The position numbers were made by a program, and so were the translations under genes. 11,662 nt of DNA, taken from assembly GCA_015655365.1 (NCBI GenBank), contig JAATFE010000037.1, positions 1 to 11,662 on the forward strand. The letters are read 5' to 3'. Source of the stretch: Terriglobales bacterium (GTDB lineage: Bacteria; Acidobacteriota; Terriglobia; Terriglobales; Acidobacteriaceae). The notes below the pieces were generated by a model. It had not been told where the DNA came from, made no database searches, and was given only the letters and a program-made list of their open reading frames with translations. How positions within the stretch are numbered: position 1 is the first letter of the stretch; every line of letters begins with the position of its first letter. Of the stretch, positions 51 through 11,662 are shown one piece after another.

Positions 51-1364
51 TTAACGAGCATCCTGGGCAGAGGGGTAATAACCCGTCTTGGCGATCACTT
101 CGAGTCCGGGCCTATCCACGCGCACATCGATCTTGCGGAACCTGCCGTCGATCACCGGCTGGTGGCTCAGGTAGCCCAGCGTGTACTGGGTGCGCGCCTC
201 CTCGGCGATCTTGGCGTAGCTCTTCTCGATGCCGTTCAGGCCGCGCTCGGAATCCAGCGTGCCGCCGGTGGCCAGCGTATACCTGGCCAGGATGTTCTCG
301 TACATGGTGAAGGGCACATGGATGCGGCTGATGTAGCCCTCGCCCCAGCGGGCCGAGTCGCCCACCGCGGTGCCATAGACGGCGACCTTGTTGGTCTGAA
401 GGTAGCGCAGCACTTCCTTATAGGTGGCCTTGCTGCCCGCTTCCTTGCCGTCGGAGATGACGTAGATAATGCGGCGGCGTCCCTTGGGGCGGGTGGAAAG
501 CTCTTTGGCCGCGGCCAGGATGGCGTCGTTGAGGGTATGAATCTCTTTGGGGATGGTCATGAACGAGCCGCCGCCAGCCGAGCGTCCCGGCTGCAGATTC
601 ACGTCGGCGCAGTTGCCGTTCACATGCACGTTGCAACCCGCCAGCGGGCCGCTGTTCATCGGCACCAGCATTTCGCTGCCGGTCTCCTTGGTCAGGGCCA
701 GCACGGCGGGCAAACGTGTGCTCTGCGCGCCGGTAAAGCCGGTCCGCTCTTGCGCTCCGTTGTTGTAAGAGAAGACCGCCACTTCGTCATAGGGCGTGAG
801 CGCGCCCTGGATGGCGCCCAGGGAGTTGTTCACCTTGGCCATCACGTCGGAGGTCAGGCTCTGATCGATGACAAAGGCGATGGAGAGCGGGAATGCGTCT
901 GTGGAAAACAGCCGTAACGGCTCGCGCGCATCGTTCTCGAAAACCTTGAAGTCGCGAAACGTGAGGCCGGCCACCAGCTTGCCCTTGTTGTCCTTGACCG
1001 TGACGGGAACTTCGACAAAGTTCACGTTGACCACGAAACGGGTGGTAGCGGCTACGCCTTCTCCGGCTGTGGGAATCTCCGGGGGGGTGTTCTGGAAGTC
1101 GTCTTTACCCTCCGTGGAAGGCGCCTGGCTGCTGCTGGGGACCTGCTGCTGAGCGGGAAGAGTCGAAGACGAACTGGATGCTGCCGGCTCGTCTCCTGCG
1201 CCCAGACCGGGTGTAATGGCGCCCTCGCCAGAGATCAGCGGCCGCGCCTGTGGGGTAGGAGCATCGGGTACCGGGGATTGTTGCTGTTGGGCCAGAGCCG
1301 GAGTCAAATTCGGGCTCGAACTCAGGAGCGCCGCCAGCGCTATTACGGTCAAACCAAGCTTCAC
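51..1364 (-). CDS. Secreted VWA-domain protein, Acidobacteria VWFA-related family
   Basis: This 437-residue protein starts with a signal peptide (residues 1-25, hydrophobic core LTVIALAALL, cleavage likely after ALA). A low-complexity Gln/Ser/Pro-rich linker covers about 26-105. A small beta domain (about 108-155, VEVPVTVKDNKGKLV) precedes a von Willebrand factor A domain (about 158-335). The metal-binding (MIDAS) motif is D167-x-S169-x-T171, and the second acidic loop is VISDG with D305. The tail, ARTQYTLGY then GRFRKIDVRV and KTGYYPS, is the typical end of the Acidobacteria VWFA-related family (TIGR03436), whose function is unknown; adhesion or matrix binding in the periplasm or outside the cell is an inference. 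Cys244 and Cys252 lie in an insertion and could form a disulfide. The start is GTG, with GGAG about 8 bases upstream. It is transcribed away from a second VWA gene of the same family. Confidence 0.9.
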   Translation of the reverse strand: MKLGLTVIALAALLSSSPNLTPALAQQQQSPVPDAPTPQARPLISGEGAITPGLGAGDEPAASSSSSTLPAQQQVPSSSQAPSTEGKDDFQNTPPEIPTAGEGVAATTRFVVNVNFVEVPVTVKDNKGKLVAGLTFRDFKVFENDAREPLRLFSTDAFPLSIAFVIDQSLTSDVMAKVNNSLGAIQGALTPYDEVAVFSYNNGAQERTGFTGAQSTRLPAVLALTKETGSEMLVPMNSGPLAGCNVHVNGNCADVNLQPGRSAGGGSFMTIPKEIHTLNDAILAAAKELSTRPKGRRRIIYVISDGKEAGSKATYKEVLRYLQTNKVAVYGTAVGDSARWGEGYISRIHVPFTMYENILARYTLATGGTLDSERGLNGIEKSYAKIAEEARTQYTLGYLSHQPVIDGRFRKIDVRVDRPGLEVIAKTGYYPSAQDAR

Positions 1365-1509: not shown

Positions 1510-1572
1510 AAGACCGGCCACAGGGCTCCACTCGACAGACTATCAGACGCGCCAAACCCGCGCTGGTTGCCT

Positions 1573-1600
1573 TTGAGCCCTCAAACAGTTCGCGTATGCT
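1573..1600 (+). promoter_or_regulatory. Candidate sigma70-type promoter of the plus-strand VWA gene
   Basis: The -35 box TTGAGC (1573-1578) and the -10 box TATGCT (1595-1600) are separated by 16 bases. Each matches consensus at 4 of 6 positions. Transcription would begin near 1607, giving a leader of about 25 bases before the ATG at 1633. A similar TTGAGC / TATGAT pair lies before the small gene at 3021. It is a moderate match, not proof. Confidence 0.4.
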
Positions 1601-1632
1601 TTCTTCGGGGGTTCAATCCCGTCTATAAAAGC

Positions 1633-2676
1633 ATGATGAGCGTCCGATGGGGAATTGCCGCTTTGCTGCTTGGCCTGCCGGTTTTGCCCACGGCGGGATG
1701 GGCCCAACTCGCGCCCTCGCCCGACGCCCCCCCGGTGAGCCACGCGCCGGCGGCTCCCGAGGAAGAATCGGTCGCCACCATCAAGCTCGAAGTGAGTCTG
1801 GTCAACGTCTTTTTTACCGTCAAGGCCAAGGACGGCACCCTGGTTCCTCACCTGAACAAGGACGACTGCGCGGTTCTGGAAGACAAAGAGCCGCAAAAGC
1901 TCAAGAGCTTTGTGGCGGAGACCAATCAGCCGCTCACCCTGGGCATTCTGCTCGACACCTCCGGCAGCCAGCAGAATGTTTTGCCCCTGGAACAGGATGC
2001 GGGCAGCCATTTTCTGGAACGGGTTCTCAAGCAGAAGGACGAAGCCTTCCTGCTCTCCTTTGACGTGGATGTGGATCTGTTGCAGGACTTCACCAACAGC
2101 CCCCGGCTGCTGTCGCGCGCCATGAGCAAGGCGGAGATCAACACCGCTGGCGGCAATGGTGCGGGCGGCATTCCCGGAGCCGGCGGGGGAACCATCCCCA
2201 CGCATGGAACTCCCAAGGGAACCCTGCTCTACGATGCGGTCTACCTGGCTTCCAACGAAAAACTGAACCAGGAGACGGGCCGCAAGGCCATGATCCTGCT
2301 GACCGACGGCGAAGACCAGGGCAGCCGCATCAAGATCGGTGAAGCCATCGCCGCGGCGCAGCGATCCAACGTCATCGTCTACGTGATTCTGATTGCCGAC
2401 CGCGGTTTCTACGGCGGTTGGGGCTACAGCGGTTTCTCCGCCATGAAAAAGATGACCGAGGAGACCGGCGGCCGCCTTATCGATGTGGGTAACAACGGGA
2501 AGAAACTCGAAGCCGCCTTCCAGCAGATCGAAGACGAGCTGCGCACCCAGTATGTGGCCACCTATACGTCTAGCAACACGAAACTCGACGGAACTTTCCG
2601 CAAACTCTCGGTCGAGTGCCGCGGGGATGGCCTGAAGGTGCAGACCCGCAAGGGATATTTTGCGCCCGCGCCATAG
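1633..2676 (+). CDS. Secreted VWA-domain protein, Acidobacteria VWFA-related family
   Basis: The protein has 347 residues from the chosen ATG at 1633. The frame stays open back to a TTG at 1567, but 1633 places a clean signal peptide at the N-terminus (about 1-25, core GIAALLLGLPVL, cleavage after GWA) and fits the promoter candidate upstream. A short acidic/proline linker leads to a beta segment (about 48-95) and a VWA domain (about 100-285). The MIDAS is canonical, D108-T-S110-G-S112, with a GTLLYDAV segment containing T197 and the LTDGED loop with D225. A glycine-rich loop (about 173-187) interrupts the domain. The end, ELRTQYVATY then TFRKLSVEC and RKGYFAPAP, is characteristic of the family. 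It is a paralogue of the gene at 51-1364 but shorter, with a better-conserved metal site. Likely periplasmic or extracellular; the ligand is unknown. No clear ribosome binding site precedes either ATG at 1633 or 1636. Confidence 0.88.
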   Translation: MMSVRWGIAALLLGLPVLPTAGWAQLAPSPDAPPVSHAPAAPEEESVATIKLEVSLVNVFFTVKAKDGTLVPHLNKDDCAVLEDKEPQKLKSFVAETNQPLTLGILLDTSGSQQNVLPLEQDAGSHFLERVLKQKDEAFLLSFDVDVDLLQDFTNSPRLLSRAMSKAEINTAGGNGAGGIPGAGGGTIPTHGTPKGTLLYDAVYLASNEKLNQETGRKAMILLTDGEDQGSRIKIGEAIAAAQRSNVIVYVILIADRGFYGGWGYSGFSAMKKMTEETGGRLIDVGNNGKKLEAAFQQIEDELRTQYVATYTSSNTKLDGTFRKLSVECRGDGLKVQTRKGYFAPAP

Positions 2677-8795: not shown

Positions 8796-9109
8796 CTTAT
8801 CCACTGTTCCTATTCTCTCAGATGATCCAAAGGGCGAGAGGATTCCGCCGCTGGACGGAAAGGCCACGGTCTCCCTTTTTCCGTGGATGAGGCTTTCTCC
8901 CCCTGCGGCAGAGTGGCGACGCAAAAGATGGGCACGGAGAGTTCGCTGCTTTCGCCTTCACCCGCTTTCTGAGCAGGCTCAGGAGGTTAGGCGGGACCAT
9001 GTCAAATTCCTCAACTTCTGCGGTGGGGCAACGCGTCCCTTGGCGGCTGGGGTAATTTGCAAAGTAATTACTATTGGCGCACGATTACGGTAAACTGGTT
9101 TACCGCGCA
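8796..9109. other. Divergent intergenic region between the TolC-like gene and the sigma factor gene
   Basis: The 314-base gap has no gene. It holds one hairpin, CCACGG/CCGTGG (about 8863-8885) with an 11-base loop, whose role is unknown. The right end (9052-9105) is rich in dyads and is listed separately. No confident promoter for the TolC-like gene was found on the minus strand. The central part (about 8890-9040) shows nothing notable. Confidence 0.5.
9052..9105 (+). promoter_or_regulatory. Cluster of dyads at the start of the sigma factor gene
   Basis: GTAATT occurs at 9052 and again at 9064, 12 bases apart, and the inverse AATTAC closes a dyad at 9066-9071. A perfect palindrome, CGGTAAAC-TG-GTTTACCG, occupies 9088-9105. 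It ends 4 bases before the likely ATG at 9110. As DNA it is a good operator shape. As RNA it forms a 7-bp stem with a CTGG loop right at the ribosome entry site, where no clear Shine-Dalgarno sequence is visible. A clean -35/-10 pair was not found. Confidence 0.45.
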
Positions 9110-9763
9110 ATGGAACGACTTCGCGTCACCACAAACGATCTCGCCAAGGCTTGTGCCCACTCCGCTGACGCAGCCGAGTGGGAAGAATTTTTGCGTCGCT
9201 GCGCCCCCTTGGCCTCGCTGGTTGCTCTGCGCGTTTGCCGGCTGTGGGTGAATACACCGTCTTCGGCAACGGTGGACGACATTGTGCAGGAAGTCTTTCT
9301 CAAGCTCTGCGAGCAAGAGCGCCGCATCCTGCGAACCTTCGAGCCCCGCGGCGAAGATTCCTTCCTGGGCCTCTTGCGCATTGTTTCCGCCTCGGTGGCC
9401 AACGATTACTTTCGCCGCATCTACTCCGCAAAGAGGGGTGGCAACGTGATCACCACCTCGCTGGTGGAGGATGCGCCGCAATCCGCTGTGGCCACCAACA
9501 ACCAGACCGCCCAGATGCATCGGGCTGTCCTGCTCTCCCAGATGGACGAGAAACTTCGCTCCGCGCCGGAAGTCATCGGCGAACGCGATCGCGCCCTGTT
9601 CTGGCTTTATTACCGGCAAGGTTTCACGGCCGAGGAGATTGCCGGACTGTCCGCTACGGGACTGACTCCCAAGGGGGTAGAGAGCGCGTTGCGGCGCGTG
9701 GCCACGTGGCTGCGCGGAGAAATGCAAGGACATAAGCCGCAAGACCAGGCCGAGCCAGGCTAA
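9110..9763 (+). CDS. ECF-like RNA polymerase sigma factor
   Basis: The protein has 217 residues from ATG 9110. It would direct RNA polymerase to a specific promoter set. Region 2 covers about 25-105: DDIVQEVFLKL (56-66) is the region 2.2 core-binding helix, and SFLGLLRIVSASVANDYFRR (84-103) fits regions 2.3-2.4, which melt and read the -10 element. Region 4 covers about 150-203: ERDRALFWLYYRQGFTAEEI then the helix-turn-helix end TPKGVESALRRVATWLR. The turn is two residues longer than in most ECF factors (GLSATGLTPKGVESAL). I associate this variant with Acidobacteriota sigma factors that sit next to TPR/CHAT proteins. Regions 1 and 3 are absent, as in ECF factors. A TTG at 9074 in the same frame would add 12 residues but lies after an in-frame stop at 9065 and has no ribosome binding site. 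The gene downstream likely encodes its anti-sigma factor. Confidence 0.82.
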   Translation: MERLRVTTNDLAKACAHSADAAEWEEFLRRCAPLASLVALRVCRLWVNTPSSATVDDIVQEVFLKLCEQERRILRTFEPRGEDSFLGLLRIVSASVANDYFRRIYSAKRGGNVITTSLVEDAPQSAVATNNQTAQMHRAVLLSQMDEKLRSAPEVIGERDRALFWLYYRQGFTAEEIAGLSATGLTPKGVESALRRVATWLRGEMQGHKPQDQAEPG

Positions 9764-9844
9764 AAAAGATGAAGTATCTAAGGAATAGATCGGGATTTGT
9801 GAAAGGAATATGGCACGCGACCTCGTTACCTAGAGAGTGCAGCT
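9764..9844 (+). other. Spacer with a 7-codon mini-ORF before the anti-sigma gene
   Basis: This 81-base spacer holds a mini-ORF at 9810-9833 encoding MARDLVT. It is preceded by AAAGGA (9802-9807) only 2 bases from its ATG and ends 11 bases before the ATG of the next gene. It could be a leader peptide coupling translation, or chance. A 28-codon frame (9769-9855) also overlaps the start of the next gene but has a poor ribosome binding site. Confidence 0.25.
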
Positions 9845-11662
9845 ATGAAAGATAATCTCAATCCGGGACACCGCTCGAGCGGCCGCGAAAATGCGCTTCC
9901 CCGCGCCTTGGAGGACCTTCTCGACGGTCTGTCCTCTGCCCCTGCCGCATCGAACGCGGACTCCACGGGTGCGCCAGCGGCAACCGCGACCGGTCCCTGT
10001 CCGGCGCCGAACGAGTGGAGCACCCTCGTCGCAGGGGAAGTGCGCCCTGCGGAAGTGAATGCCTTGCTGGCCCATGCGGCGGCTTGTCCGGCCTGCGCCG
10101 AGCGTCTGCGCAAATTTTCTTCCGGCCCCTCGCCGGAAGAGGCAGTCGAAGTAAGCCAACTGGCCTGGGCATCCCAGGAGTGGCAGCACCAAATGGCGGT
10201 TCAACTCGCCCATACTCCCCGCCAGCAAAAGCAAGTCAAAACCTGGTATTTGTGGACCGGCGCTGCCCTGGCCGCGTCCCTGGCCATCGCGATCGGGTTG
10301 ACCGCTTGGTGGCAGCATGTGAATACCCCGGAGCGTCTGCTGGCCGAGGCCTATACCCATTCGCGCATCTTCGAGTTGCGCATGCCCGGCGCGGCATTTG
10401 CCGAGGTCACTCCGGAATCGCATCTTCGCGGCAGCGCTACCGGACGGGAATCGTCCAGACTGCTGGATGCCCGCTCCCGCATCGAGCGCAAGCTTGAAAC
10501 CGCCCCCCAGGATCCGCACTGGCTTCAACTCGAAGCCCGCGCCGACGTGCTGGAAGAGAAATTCGATCCCGCCATCGACATTCTCGACCGCCTGCTTGCC
10601 TCCGGACCTGTAACTTCAAGTCTTTTGGCCGACGCCGCCGCCGCCTACTTTCAGCGCGGGGCGGCCAACGGCAGCGAAAACGATCGCGCTACGGCCCTGG
10701 ACTATCTGCGCCGCGCCGACGAACTGGCTCCCGACGAGCCGGTGATCCTCTTCAACGAAGCCGTAGCCATGGAAGATCGGGGCCAGGTGATGAATGCGGT
10801 CGAGACCTGGAACCGCTATGTGCGCTTCGAACGCGATCCTCGCTGGCTGGCCGAGGGCCGCCGCCGCCTGGAGATCCTGCAACAGAAGCTGAGCCAGTTG
10901 AAGAGCCATAGCAGCCGGATGGAGCAGCATCTGGCCTCTCCGCAGGCCATGCGCGCGCTGGCCGCCGATGCCGGAACCCTTGCCACTCTCGATGAGGAAT
11001 TCACCGGCACCCATCTGCCCCGCCTGCTCGATTCCGCTTTCCCTATGCCGGGAGATCGTTCGCGCGGGTCGCCGTGTGAGGAGAGCTGTCAGGCTGCCCG
11101 CACCCTGCTCCACGCCCTGGCCGCTTCTCTCCAACACAAGCATCAAGACCCTTGGCTCACCCAGTTTCTTCCTTCCGTTTCATCCCCCCCCGATCCGGTC
11201 TTCCTTCAAGCCTCCCATGCCCTGGCCCAGGCCATTGGCGAGGACTTGTTTGGCGATTACCCCGCCGGAGAGCAGTCGGCCCTGAAAGCCAGTCAGCTTT
11301 TTCATCGCCTCGGCAATGCCGCGGGAGAAGACCGCGCCGTCATCGAGCGGTCCTACGCATTGCAGCGCGCCTCCAAAATGAGCGCCTGCTATAGCGCGGT
11401 TCATCCCTTGCTGGGCCGCGACCCGCAGTTTGCCTGGATTCAGATTCACGCCCTCACGCAAGACACCCTCTGCGACCCCACTCCGGGAACCGGAGCGGAG
11501 AACAACGCCAATTTTCAACGTGCAGTGAGCCAGGCCCACGACCGCCACTATGGAATTCTCGAATTGCGGGCCAGGAACCTGTTGGGCGCACCGGCTGTCA
11601 ATTCCGGAGATGCCGAAGCCGCCTGGCAGATCTACCTCACGACGATTCGTGCCTTTTACGCC
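9845..11662 (+). CDS. Membrane-anchored zinc-finger anti-sigma-like protein with TPR repeats (runs off the window; probable CHAT domain beyond)
   Basis: 606 residues are visible, with no stop. The N-terminal cytoplasmic part has a zinc-binding anti-sigma signature: C52 then H77-AAA-C81-PA-C84 (HxxxCxxC), in the ZAS/zf-HC2 style. One membrane span follows at about 134-156 (WYLWTGAALAASLAIAIGLTAWW). Beyond it lie TPR-like helix pairs at about 205-342 (HWLQLEARADVLEEKFDPAI, LDYLRRADELAPDEP, LFNEAVAMEDRG). Later helices include GEQSALKASQLFHRLGNAAGE and SYALQRASKMSACYSAVHPL. This order matches Terriglobia proteins that I remember ending in a CHAT (caspase-like) protease domain, but that domain is outside the window. 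The gene is 81 bases downstream of the sigma factor, so it is probably the cognate anti-sigma factor. ATG 9845 is the only start in frame after the stop at 9800. A run of eight C lies at 11184-11191. Confidence 0.75.
   Translation, partial: MKDNLNPGHRSSGRENALPRALEDLLDGLSSAPAASNADSTGAPAATATGPCPAPNEWSTLVAGEVRPAEVNALLAHAAACPACAERLRKFSSGPSPEEAVEVSQLAWASQEWQHQMAVQLAHTPRQQKQVKTWYLWTGAALAASLAIAIGLTAWWQHVNTPERLLAEAYTHSRIFELRMPGAAFAEVTPESHLRGSATGRESSRLLDARSRIERKLETAPQDPHWLQLEARADVLEEKFDPAIDILDRLLASGPVTSSLLADAAAAYFQRGAANGSENDRATALDYLRRADELAPDEPVILFNEAVAMEDRGQVMNAVETWNRYVRFERDPRWLAEGRRRLEILQQKLSQLKSHSSRMEQHLASPQAMRALAADAGTLATLDEEFTGTHLPRLLDSAFPMPGDRSRGSPCEESCQAARTLLHALAASLQHKHQDPWLTQFLPSVSSPPDPVFLQASHALAQAIGEDLFGDYPAGEQSALKASQLFHRLGNAAGEDRAVIERSYALQRASKMSACYSAVHPLLGRDPQFAWIQIHALTQDTLCDPTPGTGAENNANFQRAVSQAHDRHYGILELRARNLLGAPAVNSGDAEAAWQIYLTTIRAFYA
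11184..11191 (+). repeat. C8 homopolymer inside the anti-sigma-like gene
   Basis: Eight consecutive C bases encode part of SSPPDP (about residues 446-451) of the long anti-sigma-like protein. A one-base slip here would truncate the protein before any C-terminal catalytic domain. Seven-base G/C runs also occur in the two VWA genes (1081-1087 and 1727-1733). In GC-rich DNA such runs may be chance. Confidence 0.9.

Follow-up and report, generated by a model that had tools for sequence, protein, structure and literature searches.

Closest described systems

DdvA is the anti-sigma factor of the extracytoplasmic function (ECF) sigma factor DdvS and inhibits it in Myxococcus xanthus, according to PMC4374960. 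DdvA is deposited as a dimer, and its PDB entries are 8ROT and 8RW5, with 8RLZ for the zinc-binding anti-sigma (ZAS) domain. The locus described here lies in a stretch of 11,662 nucleotides from a Terriglobales bacterium, a soil acidobacterium; this stretch is called the window, which is all of contig C241 in a genome assembly of 2.42 Mb, 528 contigs and 67% completeness. The window has a gene for an ECF-type sigma factor of 217 residues (9110..9763, + strand) and, after an intergenic gap of 81 bases (9764-9844), the 5' part of a gene for a DdvA-type membrane anti-sigma factor with tetratricopeptide repeats (TPR) and a CHAT domain (9845..11662, + strand, 606 of 1189 codons), here named the partner. 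The pair forms an acidobacterial branch within the DdvS/DdvA kind, and DdvA is the solved precedent that an earlier, sequence-only reading of this stretch missed. In this DdvS/DdvA-type pair, a signal-triggered CHAT domain probably cuts the anti-sigma factor as a built-in site-1 protease.

The top Foldseek match of the partner is the Myxococcus “transmembrane anti-sigma factor DdvA” (E 2.5e-18). Profile searches by sequence lead to DdvA as well, that with the A4 profile at 4.1e-14, while L035 alone, a distant relative, matched only TPR proteins and a search of PDB with the A3 profile gave no relative. The two proteins share a zinc anti-sigma domain, a single membrane helix, TPRs and, at the C-terminus, a CHAT domain in which His and Cys occupy the catalytic positions. 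Almost the entire TPR-CHAT exterior aligns with the same fold, and the membrane stretch aligns too. DdvA has an ECF sigma partner, as PMC4374960 describes, and here the sigma gene is encoded with the anti-sigma gene. The two proteins differ in sequence (about 16-17% identity), in length (991 residues in DdvA and 1189 here) and at W1121, which is invariant in the partners here and is not Trp in the DdvA alignment. Since the layout is already known from DdvA, the partner is a conserved new relative and not a new category.

Csx29, the TPR-CHAT protease of the type III-E CRISPR Craspase (PMC10028731), is a separate RNA-activated protein that cuts a separate inhibitor, Csx30, whereas here inhibitor and CHAT domain are parts of one membrane protein of 1189 residues. 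In VIA-align, Csx29 and separase had slightly higher Z scores than DdvA, but over shorter aligned stretches, and the Csx29 alignments begin at model residue 401 or beyond. The sigma factor scores 15.1 bits against CAS_III-E_sigma (NF041236), which has a cut-off of 100, and falls outside the CASP-sigma family. Kinship with CRISPR Craspase, whose gRAMP-associated TPR-CHAT the sequence-only reading had cited as an example, is not supported beyond the TPR-CHAT fold.

Canonical ZAS anti-sigma factors include ChrR, RslA and RsrA, and anti-sigma factors can be subject to regulated proteolysis, as in RseA/DegS/RseP. The partner shares with the canonical ZAS proteins the C/H/C/C zinc set beside an ECF gene and, with many of them, a membrane anchor; the fold match of its zinc domain is weak. 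DdvA apart, no ZAS anti-sigma factor of this kind is known to have its own protease domain. The ECF54 group, which has CHAT and subtilase genes in its context and for which proteolysis is proposed, is described without an anti-sigma factor in PMC8999054. It resembles the present locus by a CHAT gene near an ECF sigma gene and differs from it in that the example cited there is actinobacterial and lacks an anti-sigma factor. Neighbourhoods of EACC2 and caspases, as described in PMC8195603, likewise bring together a caspase-fold domain, an ECF sigma factor and TPR proteins, but by that description they differ as conflict systems of several genes that include EACC2 and C-terminal domains of variable type. 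In the literature collection searched, CHAT and anti-sigma together brought up only the Craspase paper, and searches joining CHAT with ECF sigma, zinc finger and TPR, or with TPR, sigma factor and Acidobacteria, brought up none.

The joined partner protein

The partner gene begins with the ATG at 9845 and its open reading frame (ORF) leaves the contig open after 606 codons. The final 141 bases of the window (11522..11662, + strand) are an exact match, in reverse complement, to the end of contig C54 of the same genome, which holds the remaining TPRs and the CHAT domain with His1039 and Cys1088. On C54 (L001) the frame continues on the minus strand to its stop, down to base 1316. The joined partner has 1189 residues, arranged as N-terminal tail, zinc set, a single membrane helix, juxtamembrane segment, TPR superhelix and C-terminal CHAT. 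Database protein P0001, encoded on a contig of 5526 bases, also has 1189 residues and differs from the joined partner by 4 substitutions; because length is equal and differences so few, the join of C241 and C54 is sound. A chance fusion of unrelated genes through the 141-base overlap was considered and rejected, as P0001, whose contig is neither C241 nor C54, matches end to end. The AlphaFold model of P0001, built with 74 sequences, has a mean pLDDT of 80.2 and a pTM of 0.76. Among 7998 database candidates scored, 611 are partner-like at E <= 0.001, and not all of them need be such pairs.

The sequence-only reading had described an ECF-like sigma gene, a gap of 81 bases and a zinc-motif partner with one membrane helix and TPRs, all of which is confirmed. 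It had also supposed that the C-terminus past the window is CHAT, and the extension into C54 bears this out: the domain there matches PF12770 with E 4.8e-40 and 137.7 bits, against a cut-off of 24. The His/Cys dyad, which that reading proposed to look for, is intact as His1039/Cys1088.

Zinc anti-sigma domain

The zinc-ligand set of the partner (9998..10096, + strand) is formed by C52 and by the motif H77-x3-C81-x2-C84. Across 20 N-termini that were selected for having the domain, two of which come from proteins lacking CHAT, no columns other than these four are invariant. Among the 120 homologues listed, no alternative residue occurs at the ligand positions; gaps occur in 17-23 of these homologues, in most cases because the called start lies further downstream. 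The ligands are found in 28 of 29 full-length rows, and in the exception, L020, the ORF begins downstream of them. Pfam zf-HC2 matches weakly and under its cut-off, with E 0.025 for the 606 residues and 0.0084 for the N-terminus. The N-terminal profile matches the DdvA ZAS structure 8rlz (E 0.0045) with H-x3-C-x2-C aligned. Judged by ligand invariance and this match, the domain is of the anti-sigma kind, in agreement with the earlier proposal. Two H-x3-C-x2-C motifs, about 60 residues apart, precede the membrane helix in the divergent partners L037, L068, L070-L073, L078, L079 and L088.

Membrane helix and probable periplasmic exterior

A single membrane helix is predicted at residues 136-159 (10250..10321, + strand) and is seen in the AlphaFold model, where its first residues have pLDDT < 50. 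A hydropathy peak above 1.4 is present in all 31 divergent relatives and in 119 of the 120 close ones, and the residues ahead of the helix hold more Lys and Arg than those behind it in 27 of the 31 and 119 of the 120, respectively. The helix is followed by a conserved juxtamembrane segment, residues 160-200 (LLAEAYTHSRIFELRMPGA...RG; 10322..10444, + strand), recognized in the alignment of 31 and placed on the periplasmic side, which may be a cleavage or switch segment.

The first part of the TPR superhelix comprises residues 204-606 (10454..11662, + strand), as indicated by PF14559 (28.1 bits, cut-off 25) and by the model, and has Cys411/415 and Cys515/543 as candidate disulfides. In all 29 rows Cys827/834 are either both there (19) or both missing (10), with loss mainly in one clade, and the same holds for Cys411/415 in 27 of 29 (17 with the pair, 10 with none of it). 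None of the 29 rows lacks Cys515 or Cys543; a single loss in 9 of the 120 homologues listed, with a double loss in 1, weighs against a strict bond. An even number of cysteines was dropped as a sign of disulfides, and only the pairwise patterns were used, because even counts, seen in 96 of 120 close relatives, are near chance in the divergent set (19 of 31).

The exterior cysteine pairs serve as supporting evidence for a periplasmic placement and, together with the charge bias, indicate that the zinc domain is likely inside and the TPR-CHAT part in the periplasm. Most known CHAT domains belong to cytoplasmic proteins, and the hydrophobic stretch might not be a true span, so that the whole protein with its CHAT domain would be cytoplasmic like Csx29. 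We regard this arrangement as very improbable in view of the near-universal hydropathy peak, the Lys/Arg bias before it, the conserved exterior cysteine pairs and the name of DdvA as a transmembrane anti-sigma factor.

CHAT domain and proposed mechanism

The CHAT domain is a predicted caspase-like peptidase (clan CD) with a conserved catalytic pair. PF12770 matches at E <= 0.01 in 31 of 31 members of alignment A5, His1039 and Cys1088 are kept in 29 of 29 full-length rows, and Cys1088 is retained in 119 of the 120 homologues listed; the catalytic-site listing also contained other CHAT families and rows that end before the site. In its own genome, a 67%-complete assembly, no further CHAT protein was found besides that of C54.

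The architecture, the conserved pairing, the catalytic pair, the likely topology and the relationship to DdvA are drawn from sequence and model. By analogy with its family and with DdvA, the cytoplasmic ZAS-like domain would sequester the sigma factor and keep it from RNA polymerase. One helix would span the inner membrane and, in the periplasm, the TPR superhelix would be capped by a separase/Csx29-like CHAT cysteine protease. We infer that the TPR-CHAT exterior reads an envelope signal, which would turn CHAT on; CHAT would then, most likely, cut its own anti-sigma factor or that of its dimer partner near the juxtamembrane segment, and the usual intramembrane and cytoplasmic proteases would release the sigma factor. 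Cutting of the anti-sigma factor by CHAT to free the sigma factor is plausible, and a built-in site-1 protease fits the location of CHAT and the conservation of both the catalytic pair and the juxtamembrane segment.

CHAT could also be the output of the system, namely a periplasmic protease which, once triggered, would attack other proteins, whether of the envelope or foreign, while the sigma factor set free would drive a transcriptional response to match. In favour of this, separase cuts another protein. So does the CHAT protease Csx29, whose known substrate is Csx30 (PMC10028731). No obvious substrate gene stands beside the pair, which counts only weakly against an output role, as a recurrent divergent membrane-protein gene (13 loci) was not examined further, and a PADLOC defence search with three proteins tried gave no match. 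Such an output role appears improbable. The role in cell death that the sequence-only reading had considered found no support.

Conservation and variants of the pair

Among 31 partners, which were chosen as full-length and have 22-75% identity to the first sequence, 25 columns are invariant, including H77, C81, C84, H1039 and C1088. The rows of alignments A5 and A6 were hand-picked from relatives having the domains, with L020 excluded. The set of 29 rows used above consists of ORFs of more than 1000 residues with N-terminal, TPR and CHAT matches, plus the joined protein; shorter, split and cut relatives are excluded from it, and L039 is the same locus as L017.

The survey of conservation of the pair, suggested by the earlier reading, gave a sigma gene upstream in 20 of 20 loci having upstream DNA, out of 22 in named genomes, all acidobacterial; the sigma gene is truncated in L032. 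Across 120 genomes from the family, at E <= 1e-12, the sigma factor is found in 22, the partner in at least 19 and both in at least 17, the partner counts being lower bounds with up to 5 candidates scored per genome. In one of these 17 genomes (G378) the CHAT match is an unlinked protein of another kind. In the phylum-level scan, which scored 2 candidates in each genome, matches at E <= 1e-20 are present in at least 8 of 297 genomes, and the distribution is patchy; three of these eight matches (L034-L036) are of a distant, zinc-less kind. These three, from other acidobacterial families, have an ECF-like gene (TIGR02937 under cut-off) and after it a gene for a TPR-CHAT protein of the membrane; the N-terminal domain of that protein (YLLG... 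DDY) is without H-x3-C-x2-C.

The sigma gene was located at 28 places. At 15 of them, counting the joined window, the partner is a one-gene protein with ZAS domain, membrane helix, TPRs and CHAT, and at 2 it is encoded by two genes, in tandem in L084 and, in L074, with the CHAT gene on the opposite strand 1 kb on. L075 is cut by a contig end, with the rest probably on L087, and L040 has only a ZAS-TPR fragment. Seven places have a zinc protein without visible CHAT, among them L085, cut by a contig end, and L076, which has no membrane helix; the remaining 2 have no convincing zinc partner.

Several variants weigh against a built-in site-1 protease. CHAT and most of the second TPR part are lost in L030, L031, L032 and L033, the breaks falling at residues 355-396; L031 has residue 396 fused in frame to 1091, and an assembly error is possible for these four relatives. 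L031 and L033 have lost CHAT and yet retain an intact sigma gene, as does L030, which has lost its own CHAT half and has a distant CHAT gene downstream (9856-12783). Furthermore, the exterior differs in sister proteins that have this zinc domain. These zinc/membrane proteins of 367-408 residues from stop to stop, whose exterior is not TPR-CHAT, are encoded beside the same sigma family in L080 (5683-6783), L081 (8970-10112), L082 (1262-2392), L083 (5868-7091), L085 (1-687) and L086 (311-1420); L085, cut by the contig end, is assigned to this group by resemblance. The proteins of L080-L083 and L086 have SCMVCHSAM, a haem-c-like CxxCH sequence, near the C-terminus, and from this motif they are possible redox or haem-sensing anti-sigma factors.

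Since relatives devoid of CHAT keep the zinc domain or the sigma gene, the anti-sigma factor seems functional without CHAT, and the losses and swapped exteriors point to CHAT as one of several input modules. In the same anti-sigma pair, CHAT could be a folded module for sensing or for the dimer: once the TPRs bind a ligand or misfolded protein, the dimer would change shape and the signal would cross the membrane without CHAT cutting the anti-sigma factor, which an outside DegS/RseP-like protease may cut. The CHAT-less exteriors and the sigma genes kept in L031 and L033 are in its favour, but a pure scaffold would have no need of the His/Cys pair, conserved as described above, and we find this explanation rather unlikely. 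The reading of CHAT as a built-in site-1 protease is preferred. A more specific form of it, held only tentatively, is an anti-sigma factor that carries its own site-1 protease: with a signal at the TPRs, the periplasmic, caspase-fold CHAT would cut the juxtamembrane segment of its own chain or of the dimer partner, and release of the sigma factor would begin with no need for another protease of the DegS kind. The zinc domain would be a plug that has come, in evolution, to be joined to several exteriors (CHAT, a CxxCH-bearing domain).

Sigma factor gene and its surroundings

The sigma ORF is above cut-off for TIGR02937 (sigma70-ECF, 47.4 bits, cut-off 42.9) and PF07638 (27.9 bits, cut-off 21.1), while Pfam Sigma70_r2 and r4_2 score under their cut-offs; these family searches were run with a form of 229 residues that starts at TTG 9074. 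The ATG at 9110 is the start used by most relatives in an alignment of 16. A homologue search of the protein database gave 906 sigma homologues at E <= 0.001 among 1342 candidates, not all of which need be such pairs, and the A2 profile of the sigma factor gave no PDB relative, with only weak rows up to E 10. The region-4 turn G-L-T-x-K-G-V-E-S (residues 184-192, x variable) is identical in 16 of 16 aligned sigma sequences, that of the window included, and by this alignment it is a family-wide trait. The turn is presumably 2 residues longer than is usual in ECF sequences. The sigma C-terminus is a conserved tail, mostly ESG, after a variable linker, and its final Gly is invariant in 16 sequences.

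A -10-like hexamer, TAAACT (9091..9096, + strand), lies 13 bases 5' of the sigma start codon and may belong to a promoter. In an alignment of 18 upstream regions, from the window and its near relatives, every one has the form TAnACT, and the position of the hexamer so near the start codon suggests a leader that is very short or absent. A pattern derived from the hexamer gave zero matches in three genomes; it missed even the site in the window and was therefore too strict, and we propose no regulon.

In the 22 largest clusters, the pair is at one chromosomal place in up to 17 loci, where it is flanked by genes that, by eye, we take to resemble MltG, RuvX and a MoxR-type cluster. The divergently transcribed membrane-protein gene mentioned above adjoins the sigma gene in 13 loci of these clusters. 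Elsewhere in the window, 51-1364 (- strand) and 1567-2676 (+ strand) encode secreted-looking proteins back to back, with weak von Willebrand A matches under cut-off.

Significance

The DdvA layout, for which one Myxococcus protein was the sole precedent found here, is that of a sizeable acidobacterial family. This family offers natural variants, namely active, split, CHAT-deleted and with swapped exterior, for testing the control of transcription by a caspase-fold protease inside an anti-sigma factor. A caspase-fold protease built into an anti-sigma factor, if it controls transcription, would be a membrane-bound parallel to Craspase.
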